Below are positions 39,186-43,481 of a DNA stretch of 64,000 bases, one piece after another. Made by a program: the position numbers and the translations under genes. Numbering within the stretch: the first letter of the stretch is position 1; every line of letters begins with the position of its first letter. The notes beneath the pieces were generated by a model. The model was not told the DNA's origin. It saw nothing but the letters and a program-made list of their open reading frames with translations, and did no database searches. The DNA is taken from positions 124,001-188,000 of the forward strand of contig CAKZQS010000004.1 of NCBI GenBank assembly GCA_937141935.1, given 5' to 3'. Source of the stretch: an uncultured Ectothiorhodospiraceae bacterium. GTDB lineage: Bacteria; Pseudomonadota; Gammaproteobacteria; Nevskiales; Oceanococcaceae.

Positions 39186-41407
39186 CAGCCCAGCGGGTCG
39201 AGCTTGGCCAGCGCGATCAGCAGCCACTTGGCGCCGGCATCGCGAAACTGCACATGCACGCGCGAGCGCGGCCCGTCACCGTCCAGCTCCAGCACCACGC
39301 CCTCGCCAAAGCGCGCGTGGCGCACGGCCATGCCCACCCGCAAACCGCCGCGGTCCTCGGCCAGCCGGCCGCCGCCCAGGCCGGGCCCGGAGTAGTCGCC
39401 GCCGCCGCGCGGTGCCGCGGGTGGCATGCGCGGCTGGCTGGGGCGCACCTCGCTCAGGTGCTCGCGCGGCAGTTCGCCCAGAAAGCGCGAGGGGTAGGCG
39501 CGCATCACGCTGCCGTGCAGCAGCCGCGATTCGGCATGGCACAGGTGCAGCTCCTGGCGGGCGCGGGTCATGCCCACATAGGCCAGGCGGCGCTCCTCCT
39601 CCAGCCCTTCCGGGTTCTCCGAGGCGCGCTGGTGCGGGAACAGGCCATCCTCCAGCCCCACCAGAAAGACCAGCGGAAACTCGAGCCCCTTGGCCGCATG
39701 CAGCGTCATCAGTTGCACGCAGTCCTCCCAGGCCTCGCCCTGGGCCTCGCCGGCTTCCAGCGCCGCGTGGGTCAAGAAGGCCGTCAGCGGCGGCAGCTCG
39801 GCCTCCTCGCCGGCGCGGTCGGCGATCTCGAAGCCGCGGGCCGCGTTGGAGAGTTCCTCCAGGTTCTCGCGCTTGGCCTCGCCGCGGTCGTTGCCGACGC
39901 GGCCGTGGTGGTCGATCAGGCCCGAGGCCTCGACCACATGCGCCACCGCCTCGTGCAGCGGCAGGTCGGCGATGGCCTGGCCCAGCTGCTCGATCAGCTG
40001 CAAGAAGCCCATCACCGCGCGGCCGGACTTGGCCGGCAGGCCATGCGCGGCCATGTGCCCGGCCGCTTCCCACAGGCTGACGCGGCGCTCGCGCGCGGCG
40101 GCGCGGATCTTGTCCAGCGTGCTGGCGCCAATGCCGCGGGTGGGCAGGTTGACGATGCGCTCGAAGGCGGTGTCGTCGGCGCGCAAGTCGATCAGGCGCA
40201 AATAGGCCAGCGCGTCCTTGATCTCGGCGCGCTCGAAGAAGCGCAGGCCGCCATACACCCGGTAGGGGATGCGCTCGCGCACCAGCCGCTCCTCGAACAG
40301 CCGCGACTGCGCGTTGGAGCGATACAGGATCGCGCAGTCAGCACGGCGCCCGCCCTCAGCCACATGCTGGGTGATGCGGCCGATGACGTACTCGACCTCC
40401 TCGTGGTCGTTATAGGCGGCAAAGAGCTGCACCGGCGTGCCTTCGCCGGCCTGGGTCCACAGCTCCTTGCCCAGCCGCGAGGCATTGCCGCGGATCAGGC
40501 CGTTGGCCGCGCCCAGGATGTTGCCGGTGGAGCGGTAGTTCTGCTCCAGGCGGATCAGCTCGGCGCCGGGGAAGTCGCGCTCGAAGCTGAGCATGTTGCC
40601 GACCTGGGCGCCACGAAAGCTGTAGATCGACTGGTCGTCGTCGCCCACCGCGAAGAGCTTGCCGCTGTCGCCGGCCAGCACCCGCAGCCAGGCGTACTGC
40701 AGCTTGTTGGTGTCCTGGAACTCGTCGACCAGCACATGGCCGAAGCGGCGGCGGTACTGGGCCTGAATCTCGGGGTCGTCGCGGCACAGCTCGTGCGCGC
40801 GCAGCAGCAGCTCGGCGAAGTCGACCACGCCGGCGCGCAGCCGCGCCTCCTCGTATTCGGCATAGATCGCGCGCAGCTCGCCGGCGGCGAAGTCGCCCTC
40901 GTCGTCCACATGCGCGGGGCGCAGGCCCTCTTCCTTGTTGCGGTTGATGTAGCCCACCACCGAACGCGGCGCGAAGGCGCCCTCGTCGCGGTTGGTGGCC
41001 TTGAGCAGGCGCTTGACGAAGCGCAGCTGGTCGTCGGCGTCGAGGATCTGGAAGGCCTGGGGCAGTCCGGCGGCCTCCCAGTGGCGGCGCAGCAGGCGGT
41101 GGGCGATGCCGTGGAAGGTGCCCACCCACATGCGCTCGGCCGCGCTGCCGATCAGCTGCGCCAGCCGCGCGCGCATCTCGGCCGCCGCCTTGTTGGTAAA
41201 GGTGACGGCCAGGATGCCCCAGGGCGAGACCTGCTCGACCTGCAGCAGCCAGGCGATGCGGTGCGTCAGCACGCGGGTCTTGCCGCTGCCGGCGCCGGCC
41301 AGCACCATGCGGTGCGCCAACGGCGCCGTGACCGCCTGCTCCTGCGCCTCGTTCAGGCCATCGAGTATCGGTGACAGGTCATCGCTGCCCAGTGCGGCGC
41401 GGCTCAT
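39185..41407 (-). CDS. uvrD: DNA helicase II (UvrD/PcrA family)
   Basis: 740 aa. Superfamily 1A helicase: Walker A AGAGSGKT at 37-44, TFTNKAAAEMR, DEFQDTN (Walker B), GDDDQSIYSFRGA, EQNYRST, LMTLHAAKGLEF and YVGMTRAR. The C-terminal KH-like module (VGMAVRHARFGEGVVLELDG) is the RNA-polymerase-binding Tudor-type fold of UvrD. Acts in nucleotide-excision and mismatch repair. Its ATG overlaps the TRAP-binding-protein stop and its stop overlaps the GT-C gene start, so it sits in the middle of an odd three-gene operon. Confidence 0.96.
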   Translation of the reverse strand: MSRAALGSDDLSPILDGLNEAQEQAVTAPLAHRMVLAGAGSGKTRVLTHRIAWLLQVEQVSPWGILAVTFTNKAAAEMRARLAQLIGSAAERMWVGTFHGIAHRLLRRHWEAAGLPQAFQILDADDQLRFVKRLLKATNRDEGAFAPRSVVGYINRNKEEGLRPAHVDDEGDFAAGELRAIYAEYEEARLRAGVVDFAELLLRAHELCRDDPEIQAQYRRRFGHVLVDEFQDTNKLQYAWLRVLAGDSGKLFAVGDDDQSIYSFRGAQVGNMLSFERDFPGAELIRLEQNYRSTGNILGAANGLIRGNASRLGKELWTQAGEGTPVQLFAAYNDHEEVEYVIGRITQHVAEGGRRADCAILYRSNAQSRLFEERLVRERIPYRVYGGLRFFERAEIKDALAYLRLIDLRADDTAFERIVNLPTRGIGASTLDKIRAAARERRVSLWEAAGHMAAHGLPAKSGRAVMGFLQLIEQLGQAIADLPLHEAVAHVVEASGLIDHHGRVGNDRGEAKRENLEELSNAARGFEIADRAGEEAELPPLTAFLTHAALEAGEAQGEAWEDCVQLMTLHAAKGLEFPLVFLVGLEDGLFPHQRASENPEGLEEERRLAYVGMTRARQELHLCHAESRLLHGSVMRAYPSRFLGELPREHLSEVRPSQPRMPPAAPRGGGDYSGPGLGGGRLAEDRGGLRVGMAVRHARFGEGVVLELDGDGPRSRVHVQFRDAGAKWLLIALAKLDPLG

Positions 41408-42531
41408 GCGCCCCCATCGGGTTGGCGGGTGCGCAGGAAATGCTCCTCCGCGAGGCGGGAATAGGGCAGCACCTGGTCGCGGAAGGCCTTGTAGGAGGCA
41501 TAAACCTTGGCCGCGAAGGTGTCGGCGGCGGCGAAGTCGGCCACCACCGTGGCCGCGGTGTCGCGCAGCGCCGTCAGCACGGCCTCCGGCCAGGCGTGCA
41601 GCGTCACGCCATGCTCGTTGACCAGCGTCTCCAGCGCCTGCTGGTTGCGGGCCACGTATTCGCTCTGCATGCGCAGGTTGGTCTGCGCGCAGGCGGCCTC
41701 GACGATGGCCTGCAGGTCGTCGGGCAGCGCGTCGAAGGCCTCCTTGTTGACGATGGCCTCCAGCGTCGGGCCGGGCTCGTGCCAGCCCGAGTAGTAATAG
41801 TGCTTGGCCGCCTTGTGCAGGCCGAAGGCGAGGTCGTTATAGGGGCCCACCCACTCGGTGGCGTCGATGGTGCCGGTGGACAGCGCGGTGAAGATCTCGC
41901 CGCCGGGAATATTGACGGTGGCCGCGCCCAGGCGCGCCAGCACCTCGCCGCCGAGGCCCGGCATGCGGATCTTCAGGCCCTTGAGGTCGTCCAGGCTGCG
42001 GATGGGCTGGCGGAACCAGCCGCCCATCTGCGTGCCGGTGTTGCCGGCCGCAAAAGGCACCAGGTTGAACTGGGCGTACAGCTCGCGCCACAGCGCGTTG
42101 CCGCCGCCAAATTCCAGCCAGGCGTTCTGCTCGGCGGCGGTGAAGCCGAAGGGCACACAGGTAAAGAAGGGGGCGGCCGGGGCCTTGCCCTTCCAGTAAT
42201 AGGCGGCGCCATGGCCCATCTGCGCGCTGCCGCGGGCCACCGCGTCGAAGACCTCCAGCGCCGGCACTCGTTCGCCGGCGCCGTAGAGCTTGACCGTCAG
42301 CCGGCCGGCGCTGAGTCGGCCAATCGACTCGGCCAGGTGCGCCGCGCCGCTGCCCAGGCCCGGAAAGTTGCGTGGCCAGGTGGTGTACATCGTCCACTGG
42401 ATGGGCTTGTCGGCCTTGGCCGGAGCGGGCTGGCCCGCGCTGCCGGCGGCGGCCGCGGGGGCGGCCTTTTCGCCGCAGGCGGCCAGCCCCAGGGTGCCGG
42501 CCGCAAGGCCGAGCATGTCGCGTCGTTTCAT
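41404..42531 (-). CDS. TRAP-type substrate-binding lipoprotein
   Basis: 375 aa. The signal has twin arginines (MKRRDMLGLAAGTLG) and a lipobox LAAC with C19, so it is probably a Tat-exported lipoprotein. The mature part fits the DctP/TRAP solute-receptor family: WTMYTTWPRNFPGLGSGA, FDAVARGSAQMGHGAAYYW, then GLKIRMPGLGGEVLARLGA and GEIFTALSTGTIDATEWVGPYND, typical of the branch that binds keto or carboxylic acids. No membrane subunits (DctQ, DctM) are nearby, so it is an orphan receptor. It leads the overlapping operon with uvrD and the GT-C gene. Confidence 0.9.
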   Translation of the reverse strand: MKRRDMLGLAAGTLGLAACGEKAAPAAAAGSAGQPAPAKADKPIQWTMYTTWPRNFPGLGSGAAHLAESIGRLSAGRLTVKLYGAGERVPALEVFDAVARGSAQMGHGAAYYWKGKAPAAPFFTCVPFGFTAAEQNAWLEFGGGNALWRELYAQFNLVPFAAGNTGTQMGGWFRQPIRSLDDLKGLKIRMPGLGGEVLARLGAATVNIPGGEIFTALSTGTIDATEWVGPYNDLAFGLHKAAKHYYYSGWHEPGPTLEAIVNKEAFDALPDDLQAIVEAACAQTNLRMQSEYVARNQQALETLVNEHGVTLHAWPEAVLTALRDTAATVVADFAAADTFAAKVYASYKAFRDQVLPYSRLAEEHFLRTRQPDGGA

Positions 42532-42578
42532 CGTGTGAGTTCGAGCCCGGATCAACGAGCGCCAAGCATACCCGGAGC

Positions 42579-42606
42579 AAAAAAAAACCCGGCGGGATGC
42601 GCCGGG
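42579..42606 (-). terminator. Intrinsic terminator, minus strand (candidate sRNA A)
   Basis: A 7-bp stem CCCGGCG/CGCCGGG (42588-42594 with 42600-42606), followed on the minus strand by nine T residues. No coding gene on that strand lies upstream within the gap, so it must end an RNA that starts here. Confidence 0.88.
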
Positions 42607-42780
42607 TTAATGCCATGCTAGGCTGGAGAACCTTGGGTGCCACACGACGGATCGTCCAGATCCCCTTCGTGCGGCGGAGCGTCCGAAGACGCCGCGAGTC
42701 GCCTCGCTATCGATACATTCCATGCTCGATGCAGACATCATGCCACGGGCAATCGTTCCGGCAATCCGCCTATGCCGACA
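42579..42780 (-). ncRNA. Candidate small RNA A (5' end approximate)
   Basis: A gene-free minus-strand stretch that ends in the terminator at 42579-42606. Just before the terminator is a block CCCAAGGTTCTCCAGCCT (about 42616-42640), shared almost exactly with candidate B; TTCTCC could pair with a Shine-Dalgarno sequence. Upstream are small perfect hairpins: GCGTC/GACGC with a TTCG loop (42679-42692) and GCGAG/CTCGC (42694-42707). A weak TTGCCG-N16-CATGAT promoter is possible further upstream. The 5' end is a guess. No known RNA family was recognised. Confidence 0.5.
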
Positions 42781-42829
42781 GTCACTGTAGGAATAGTCCT
42801 ACAAGGGCGTGCCGGCCCACGTTGCGGCC

Positions 42830-42853
42830 AAAAAAAACCCGGCTTGCGCCGGG
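42830..42853 (-). terminator. Intrinsic terminator, minus strand (candidate sRNA B)
   Basis: Stem CCCGGC/GCCGGG (42838-42843 with 42848-42853) around TTGC, followed on the minus strand by eight T residues. Near copy of the terminator 250 bp downstream of it. Confidence 0.88.
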
Positions 42854-42990
42854 TTTAAGTGCCTGAGAGGCTGGAGAACTTGGGTCCTGAAGGCCGGTGA
42901 AGGCGATCAGGTGAGAACCGTGTTGCCACAGGTGAACGGGGACATTCACCGTGGGGATATCCTCGCTCCGCCGCAGGGTGCGATCTGTCG
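42830..42990 (-). ncRNA. Candidate small RNA B (5' end approximate)
   Basis: A second gene-free minus-strand stretch ending in a terminator. It shares the block CCCAAGTTCTCCAGCCT (about 42873-42893) with candidate A, at the same distance from the terminator. Further upstream a strong hairpin pairs GGTGAA with TTCACC, extended by CCAC/GTGG, around a C-rich loop (TGTCCCCG), near 42925-42955. C-rich loops and a shared unpaired anti-Shine-Dalgarno-like block are typical of trans-acting sRNAs. It is divergent from dtd. 5' end uncertain. Confidence 0.5.
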
Positions 42991-43043
42991 CCTGCTGCCC
43001 ACAGCCCTTGTAGGAGATTGCCGATGACCGGGGTGAGACCGGC

Positions 43044-43481
43044 ATGAAGGTCGTGTTGCAACGCGTTGCCCAGGCCCGTGTGGACGTGGCCGGCGAGCTG
43101 GTGGGCCGCATCGGGCCTGGTTTGCTGCTGCTGGCGGGCTTTGCCCCCGGCGACGAGCCGGCCCAGGTGCGCGCCGCGGCGCAGCGGCTGCTGGCCTACC
43201 GCATCTTTCCCGACGAGCAGGGGCGCATGAACCGCGACGTGCGCCAGGCGGGCGGTGGCGTGCTGGCGGTGCCCAATTTCACGCTGGAGGCCGACACGCG
43301 GCGGGGCTTGCGGCCTAGTTTTGCCAGTGCGGCGCCCCCGGCGCAGGCACAGCCGCTATTTGAGGAGTTCTTGGCGGCGCTGCGCGCCTCGGGCCTGGAC
43401 GTGGCCAGCGGCCGCTTTGGCGCCGATATGCAGGTGCAGCTGGTTAACGATGGGCCGGTAACGCTGAGCTTTGCATTCTGA
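43044..43481 (+). CDS. dtd: D-aminoacyl-tRNA deacylase with altered active-site motif
   Basis: 145 aa. Family features are clear: [64 protein letters not shown] with the NxGPxT Gly-cisPro motif. The usual SQxTL catalytic motif reads PNFTL here (residues 77-81): Thr80 remains, while Ser77 is Pro and Gln78 is Asn. DTD removes D-amino acids and glycine from tRNA. The changed motif recalls the PQ form known in the animal relative ATD, so substrate choice could differ. It overlaps the convergent next gene by 38 bp. Confidence 0.92.
   Translation: MKVVLQRVAQARVDVAGELVGRIGPGLLLLAGFAPGDEPAQVRAAAQRLLAYRIFPDEQGRMNRDVRQAGGGVLAVPNFTLEADTRRGLRPSFASAAPPAQAQPLFEEFLAALRASGLDVASGRFGADMQVQLVNDGPVTLSFAF

Follow-up and report, generated by a model that had tools for sequence, protein, structure and literature searches.

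Tandem small RNA genes beside dtd in an uncultured gammaproteobacterium: probably a new family of Gac-controlled, Csr-type RNAs with a candidate antisense seed

Closest Described Systems

The described RNAs that come closest to the two genes discussed here are the small RNAs (sRNAs) of the Csr/Rsm pathway, namely CsrB/CsrC and RsmX/RsmY/RsmZ. The likeness lies in an 18-bp GacA/UvrY-type box, in GGA motifs of which many are open, in an intrinsic terminator, and in the presence of CsrA and GacA relatives in the genome. The present family differs in its frequent position near dtd and, within the window's own taxonomic family, in being poor in GGA. Furthermore, it carries a conserved, unpaired 3′ seed followed by a hairpin, which we know of in no Csr/Rsm sponge. 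McaS of Escherichia coli, a base-pairing sRNA that also binds CsrA, offers (compared by description only) a parallel for the double action of CsrA titration and base pairing proposed below; to our knowledge, it is not driven through a GacA/UvrY box, and the csrA mRNA is not among its known targets.

The box itself is known from a study in which, according to its accessible portion, an 18-nt TGTAAG-N6-CTTACA upstream of csrB/csrC is bound by UvrY (PMC4682653). In Marinomonas, the 18-nt repeat is called the "GacA box" in the excerpts available of PMC8523701, where a TGTAGG variant (TGTAGGGGAATTCTTACA) stands before csrA1. Csr sponge RNAs are described as having little sequence conservation and as difficult to detect in bacteria other than the models (PMC8523701 and PMC11882849, both available in part). 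As far as the accessible sections of PMC11882849 go, imperfect pairing of the Pseudoalteromonas fuliginea Csr sponges Pf1-Pf3 with a few mRNAs was predicted in silico, and a separate antisense RNA, sRNA0654, was predicted to regulate the csrA mRNA; by this description alone, sponge and csrA antisense are different RNAs there, whereas here one RNA would be both. Duplication of Csr sRNA genes within one genome has a precedent in the csrB siblings of Vibrio tasmaniensis (PMC6262261, partial text), although the copies described here are arranged in tandem, with a common 3′ seed and diverged 5′ parts. Two putative CsrA-related sRNAs of Alcanivorax, CsrR1 and CsrR2, are known to us by description from part of PMC9788540. 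Finally, Betaproteobacteria_toxic_sRNA (RF02278) and anti-hemB (RF02837) also have a pyrimidine-rich stretch before a similar GC-rich terminator, but members of the present family reach only ~18-25 bits against cut-offs near 50, mostly from the terminator.

The literature covered here, with subscription papers mostly outside its coverage, held no Gac-driven sponge with a csrA-pairing seed (the nearest being PMC11882849, in its accessible part), nothing that links csrB with D-tyrosyl-tRNA deacylase and, for the exact core strings, a single unrelated gene-editing paper. A family of tandem, Gac-controlled, Csr-type sRNAs of this kind has probably not been described before. We consider it fairly likely that the two genes are GacA/UvrY-activated sRNAs of the Csr/Rsm pathway to which an antisense seed has been added.

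Two Tandem RNA Genes Between dtd and dctP

The window (the whole stretch of 64,000 nucleotides that was analyzed) belongs to a 3.57-Mb assembly, G000. An earlier note, made from the letters alone, had pointed to a 512-bp region without a gene and to two related, tandem sRNA genes in it, and both the size and the layout are borne out. The gap runs from the dtd start codon at 43044 to the dctP ATG, read at 42531 (the open reading frame list begins this frame at a TTG at 42555). It holds the following features, listed with their immediate neighbors:

43044–43481, plus strand: dtd, D-aminoacyl-tRNA deacylase, divergent neighbor (TIGR00256, E 1e-48)
42830–42960, minus strand: sRNA copy 1, predicted transcript of ~130 nt with a putative start
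42910–42922, minus strand: second seed-like motif of copy 1 (CACGGTTCTCACC), by direct reading
42869–42881, minus strand: core and seed of copy 1 (AAGTTCTCCAGCC), the seed being unpaired with a probability of 0.82
42830–42856, minus strand: intrinsic terminator of copy 1, from a terminator scan
42579–42735, minus strand: sRNA copy 2, predicted transcript of ~155 nt with a putative start
42621–42634, minus strand: core and seed of copy 2 (AAGGTTCTCCAGCC), the seed being unpaired with a probability of 0.51
42612–42623, minus strand: small 3-bp hairpin GCC-loop-GGC after the seed of copy 2, kept in 8 of 8 aligned members
42579–42608, minus strand: intrinsic terminator of copy 2, from a terminator scan
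41404–42531, minus strand: gene for a TRAP-type DctP solute-binding protein, downstream neighbor (NF037995, E 1.1e-21, searched minus the first six residues)

The two minus-strand terminators that had been proposed were located at 42856-42835 and 42608-42586. Over the 1.6 kb scanned, three terminator-like sites were found against 1.2±1.0 in shuffles, the third lying on the plus strand inside dtd. Each of the two minus-strand terminators is preceded by a core, CCCAAG(G)TTCTCCAGCCT, and a small GCC...GGC hairpin; letter for letter, the core reads CCCAAGTTCTCCAGCCT in the upstream copy and CCCAAGGTTCTCCAGCCT in the downstream one. The 5′ parts do differ, as had been noted. The accompanying statement that some 50 bases are nearly the same holds for a shared 12-nt core and the terminator stem and is otherwise overstated, identity being 81% over ~60 nt. 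With up to three mismatches, AAGTTCTCCAGCCT occurs at 10 places in the window (2.6 expected), and with fewer than two mismatches only at the two cores. The longer AAGNTTCTCCAGCCT has a single occurrence in the whole assembly, in copy 2; within this stretch, copy 1 is one base shorter.

Both predicted RNAs fold better than their dinucleotide shuffles (z -3.5 for copy 2 and -5.8 for copy 1), as do relatives in G001 (G001b, z -3.8) and G002 (z -4.1), with G001a no better than shuffles (z -1.7). Since the element is also kept in related genomes, it is more than a chance arrangement. Full-length copy 2 matches the covariance model R1 with E 2.9e-18 and copy 1 matches it with E 1.6e-11, values to be read in the knowledge that R1 was built partly from these same two copies.

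The earlier note knew of no family with this sequence, and the elements examined give no above-cut-off match to Rfam. None was found at the gathering cut-off anywhere in the window, nor at the elements in a permissive scan of 18 loci (three of them nonmembers); a tRNA above the cut-off lies in the flank of the nonmember L036. Among the CsrB/CsrC/RsmX/RsmY/RsmZ families, the best score was that of rsmX in L003, at 19.5 bits against 56, and no csrB/rsm family appeared at E values up to 3 for L070-L075 and L077. Identity with RF02278 was rejected as the window copies score 22.2 and 22.0 bits against a gathering cut-off of 50. Other subthreshold candidates (anti-hemB, Betaproteobacteria_toxic_sRNA, suhB, FsrA, rsmX, and rnk_pseudo) were likewise set aside, being far below cut-off with inspected alignments that rest on the terminator.

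Distribution and Gene Neighborhood

A covariance search of other genomes, which the earlier note had proposed, shows that the family recurs in 15 genomes from 10 families. In all four genomes examined of the window's own family, the gene order is dtd, element(s), dctP, uvrD; the copy number is two in G000, three in tandem in G001 (same genus), and one each in G002 and G003, which are near twins. Within the order, R1 gave matches in 14 of 85 genomes, of which five were accepted (G000-G004) and the other nine rejected on reading the loci. G004 belongs to another family than the window's, and its element again lies beside dtd. Across the class, R1 matched in 48 of 369 genomes, a minority of which were inspected at the locus, and a second model, R2, at E 5e-5 matched in 15 of 369, of which 12 were accepted and three (G205, G297, G336) rejected by inspection. 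Together, the class-wide searches added G263, G123, G352, G085, G242, G268, G221, G372, G150, and G428.

The most constant synteny partner found is dtd. With the window's Dtd as query and flanks of ~1.5 kb, it was detected within ~1.3 kb of the element in 10 of the 15 genomes, though the match is weak in G085 (E 1.6e-5) and another gene intervenes in G123; for the other five genomes, flanks of this length are possibly too short to tell. A DctP gene also adjoins the element in G001, G002, G003, and G263.

The terminator stem covaries across the family, with eight cells changed on both sides, a count equaled in 0 of 500 shuffles. The 3-bp hairpin, on the other hand, is invariant and thus uninformative by covariation.

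Other sRNA-like elements came up along the way. L036:1501-1560, L042:1501-1557 (minus strand), and L079:1501-1568, from three families, share a different conserved element, CTCC-ATCCTCCTTTGGTGG followed by a terminator, which stays below the RF02278 cut-off (35.7, 22.4, and 32.9 of 50 bits, respectively). L039 of G207 holds a possible tandem, terminator-linked pair ~300 bp apart (1501-1549 and 1809-1857), the first beginning GTATTCTCCATAGCTGATT.

The GacA/UvrY-Type Box

Three further features lie on the promoter side:

43009–43016, minus strand: half-box CTCCTACA upstream of copy 1, by direct reading, 132 nt before the seed
42786–42803, minus strand: GacA/UvrY-type 18-bp box of copy 2 (TGTAGGACTATTCCTACA), palindrome TGTAGG-N6-CCTACA
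42734–42744, minus strand: putative -10 region of copy 2 (GGCATGATGTC), picked by eye, with the predicted start a few nucleotides further on

The box of copy 2 agrees with the TGTARG form at 12 of 12 fixed letters and ends 157 nt before the CTCC seed. It is the sole match to TGTARG-N6-CYTACA in the 3.57 Mb of G000, where the reversed-pattern control gave none. G001 likewise has a single site, placed before the first of its three copies, with one in the reversed-pattern control. Among 15 genomes (eight members and seven others), 10 have a match somewhere; the members G263 and G352 have none genome-wide, and several matches in other genomes are not adjacent to a family RNA. Upstream of copy 1, no 18-mer scores above 9 of 12, which is not better than shuffles (P 0.14). 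A scan with the sigma-70 consensus found nothing; several members share a GGCA-(N)-AT-like stretch that follows the box at ~40-50 nt.

Of 18 elements, 12 have a best TGTARGN6CYTACA match with 11-12 of the 12 fixed letters, three score 10, and three score 9; the boxes of G000_1, G001b, and G263 are no better than shuffles. The distance from box to seed is 155-181 nt in 13 of the 15 elements that score at least 10, and the box lies farther away where the RNA is longer (270 nt before the seed in G428 and 341 nt in G221). The box also holds on data that had not been used to define it. Searching named genomes for CAATCACCTCCAGCC-N3-9-GGC gave at least 119 places. Among the matches listed, 11 have a T-run, and seven of these are members with a terminator by reading; six of these come from uncultured organisms, with two MAGs assigned to Natronospirales and four to gammaproteobacteria. 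All six listed members with upstream DNA score 10-12, at a distance of 154-179 nt in five and of 281 nt in CSSed165, whose RNA is long and rich in GGA. The other four T-run places among the matches listed score 7-8, and of the listed places without a T-run only one in 108 reaches 10. Two of the six members, L117 (G123) and L153 (G352), were already known, so four are new.

A candidate regulator is at hand. G000 encodes a protein 52% identical to E. coli UvrY, with uvrC alongside, which scores 279.2 bits with NF007018 against a curated cut-off of 280. UvrY relatives at 47-59% identity occur in 13 of the 15 members (a fragment in G263), and the best matches in G352 and G242, both fragmented assemblies, are at 33-34%. 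In three nonmember genomes of the order, the best matches are at 39% (G079), 34% (G016), and 52% (G005), G005 having its 52% relative yet no R1 match.

In L054 and L062 (G002/G003), a TGTAAGATKATTCCTACA box stands before a gene that, judged by eye, is TonB-receptor-like, possibly a GacA target that is not an sRNA.

GGA Motifs and CsrA

In 21 of 22 elements (G003, the near twin of G002, was left out), the stretch that begins 55 nt past the box and ends at the seed holds 128 GGA in total against 32 TCC, its antisense. Dinucleotide shuffles give 72.0±5.9, with a maximum of 91 in 1000. A smaller count over a fixed 125 nt in 10 elements points the same way (44 against 27.4±3.7 in shuffles). The long relatives have 16 (G221), 12 (G428), and 14 (CSSed165) motifs, and in the ensemble of 22 elements 73 of 130 GGA are open.

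Signs of a sponge are weak in the window's own family. Copy 1 has one GGA (0.96 expected) and copy 2 has four (3.0 in shuffles), of which none and two are open, respectively; G001a-c have 2, 3, and 3, and G002 has 2. The six elements together hold 15 GGA against ~9.7 in shuffles. One motif of copy 2 sits in the loop of a hairpin that is a candidate CsrA site, weak on its own:

42649–42663, minus strand: hairpin GGAUC-UGGAC-GAUCC of copy 2 with GGA in the loop, from the minimum free energy fold

CsrA is encoded in all 15 member genomes, that of G000 scoring above the profile cut-off. As CsrA is common in gammaproteobacteria, its presence discriminates little.

The GacA/UvrY-type box, the family GGA excess, the three sister copies in G001, and the dtd synteny, none of which featured in the earlier note, together point to the Csr/Rsm pathway as the setting of these genes and away from the generic Hfq-type class of antisense RNAs. 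Of the interpretation offered there, the tandem sRNAs, the unmatched family, and the seed stand, and the generic antisense class gives way to the Csr/Rsm placement.

Copy 1 may be degenerate. It has a half-box only, at the shorter distance of 132 nt, a single GGA, and one seed base fewer, so that a decaying, functionless duplicate beside an active copy 2 is a real possibility, if not the one we would favor, and one compatible with the main reading. Against decay speak the very stable predicted fold (z -5.8), the intact terminator and core hairpin, and the fact that the boxes of G001b and G001c are likewise degenerate (scores 9 and 10).

The Seed and the csrA Leader

The CTCCAGCC seed is found in 15 of 18 elements and is invariant in the eight aligned members; G268, G242, and G372 have the one-letter variants CTCAAGCC or CTCTAGCC. 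In G000_2, G001a-c, G002, and G003, AAGGTTCTCCAGCC is identical despite the diverged 5′ parts. The unpaired stretch before the hairpin ranks among the best conserved parts of the element, and over the ensemble the mean unpaired probability is 0.62 for the seed against 0.40 for the 5′ part. The elements thereby have what is looked for in an Hfq-dependent sRNA, i.e., a conserved, single-stranded seed and a terminator with a U tail. The earlier note had suggested that TTCTCC can pair with GGAGAA, and the seed is indeed conserved, largely unpaired, and complementary to GGAGAA-type ribosome-binding sites. In most of the group whose seed is of UCACC type, the seed contains AUCACCUCC, a sequence that 16S rRNA likewise carries as its anti-Shine-Dalgarno end. 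Copy 1 and G001a-c (L003) have a second seed-like motif (CGGTTCTC / ACGGTTCTCC / ACGTTCTCC) in their 5′ parts.

The 15 member genomes supply 16 csrA leaders, G428 having two csrA genes, and in these the seed type is associated with the leader type. All seven genomes with a UCACC seed (G150, G242, G085, G123, G263, G372, G352) have GTGATTG at -27 to -33 of csrA, and none of the eight whose seeds are of another type (G268, G428, G003, G002, G000, G001, G004, G221) has it; these are not 15 independent events, as relatives inherit both seed and leader. The leaders with this motif (L377-L379, L388-L391) show scant other conservation across families beyond the Shine-Dalgarno (SD) sequence. The csrA leader of E. 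coli, taken as an outside control, has no GTGATTG, and its longest match to any seed is 7 nt. Of the five genomes with a UUCUCC seed, four have GGAGAAC in the csrA leader (G000 twice, G002, G003, and G004); it is found neither in G001, which has GCTGGAG, nor in leaders of the other seed types. In G000, GGAGAAC doubles as an ordinary SD.

The longest perfect match between a seed and its csrA leader is 12 nt in G123, 10 in G263 and G004, 9 in G242 and G085, 8 in G000, G002, G003, G372, and G352, 7 in G001, and 6 in G150; the leaders of G268, G221, and G428 have no seed match (4-5 nt only). In 8 of the 16 leaders, the longest match beats shuffled leaders at P ≤0.05 (~0.03 for G000, 0.11 for G001, 0.58 for G150), and duplex energies do so in just 4 of 16. 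In the random-window control, windows overlapping parts of the sRNA or csrA remained, which probably makes upper bounds of the fractions obtained for G123 and G263. With one chosen genome for each of the 10 families, own seed–leader pairs exceed permuted pairs (P 0.016). Seeds match leaders of the same class about as well as their own, so the link lies between classes. A second CsrA paralogue was rejected as a target, the longest match being 5 nt (a start was found in two of six regions).

These matches suggest the csrA mRNA as the best-supported candidate target. Pairing at around -30, just upstream of the SD, would be expected to repress csrA. If the link between seed and csrA is true, GGTGATTGAG is predicted in the csrA leaders of L147, L156, L162, and L181.

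It could also be argued that the RNAs are pure Csr/Rsm sponges that only titrate CsrA, with a 3′ stretch that pairs with nothing and serves for structure, for stability, or for contact with Hfq. That class would account for the box and the GGA content, the antisense targets are predicted only, and 3 of 10 families lack a match in the csrA leader, that of G150 being weak. We nevertheless hold this to be unlikely: few parts of the element are as well conserved as the unpaired stretch that precedes the hairpin, its 5′ half and the csrA leader vary together from lineage to lineage, and the seed stretch is retained in the window's family despite its few GGA sites.

A Proposed Double Action

Building on the computed conservation of the elements, the position and rarity of the box, the family GGA excess, the conserved and accessible seed, the encoded CsrA and GacA orthologues, and the association between seed and csrA leader types, we propose a Csr/Rsm-pathway sRNA with an added antisense seed that would work as follows; transcription, GacA and CsrA binding, pairing, and the direction of regulation are all predictions from sequence. 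Phosphorylated GacA would bind the 18-bp box and switch on transcription ~50-60 nt downstream, giving an RNA of ~130-160 nt here and up to ~350 nt in relatives. GGA motifs in its 5′ part would titrate CsrA. Its 3′ part would present the largely unpaired seed (here AAGGUUCUCC), just before the small hairpin and the terminator, for pairing with mRNA leaders and ribosome-binding sites. With the csrA mRNA as a target, the RNA would act against CsrA at two levels, the protein and its mRNA. The few GGA motifs, the strict seed, and the duplication or, within one genus, triplication suggest that the antisense role may dominate in the window's family. Put more boldly, and only tentatively, the GacA-switched RNAs may disarm CsrA twice, seed and csrA leader may have changed together, and the window's lineage may largely have given up the sponge and multiplied the antisense.

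The family can be traced by its 3′ seed, its dtd neighborhood, and its box, and so makes the Gac/Csr switch accessible in lineages without a model organism. If the seed works as proposed, protein titration and antisense, the two principal ways in which bacterial sRNAs act, would be joined in one RNA aimed at one regulator, and the family would illustrate a route by which an antisense RNA could arise from a sponge.

Other Predicted Targets

A second candidate target set consists of genes for exported proteins. Before an ATG, GGAGAACC occurs at 24 places in G000, 32 in G001, and 6 in G002, compared with 40 in G000 and 42 in G001 for three control octamers together; it is over-represented as a ribosome-binding site in G000 and G001. 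The proteins that follow were sorted by a heuristic export call (spacing ≤6, open reading frames of ≥90 aa) in 23 of the 24 G000 stretches (one site at a contig end was dropped), 32 of 32 in G001, and all six sites of G002 in five stretches, with 29 of 40 (G000) and 26 of 42 (G001) control stretches at spacing ≤6. Exported-looking products follow GGAGAACC in 24 of 38 cases in G000 and G001 together, against 10 of 27 for the controls (one-sided P 0.034). In G000 alone, the figures are 14 of 21 against 5 of 17 (P 0.024); in G001 alone there is no difference (10 of 17 against 5 of 10). The set is ranked below csrA because G002 lacks the GGAGAACC excess; the preference for exported proteins is not clear there either.

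This over-representation in G000 and G001, with the exported bias in G000, would also suit an ordinary Hfq-type pair of base-pairing antisense sRNAs outside the Csr pathway, in which GGA is incidental, as would the barely enriched GGA of the window's family (15 against ~9.7 in six elements). We find this improbable in view of the GacA-type box at a fixed distance, the strong GGA excess in relatives that share the dtd synteny, and G002, which has the same seed and only six GGAGAACC-ATG places. A cis-acting leader or attenuator of dctP in place of trans-acting RNAs is very improbable, for although the element precedes dctP on the same strand in G000-G003 and G263, it is found near dtd with no DctP match within ~1.5 kb flanks in G004, G123, G221, and G428, and each of the three G001 copies ends in a terminator.

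At the G000 and G001 loci (L255-L309), GGAGAACC stands, in G000, mainly before signal-peptide and lipoprotein genes. Some of the sites form orthologous pairs, namely L263/L288 and L265/L279 between G000 and G001 and L266/L313 between G000 and G002.
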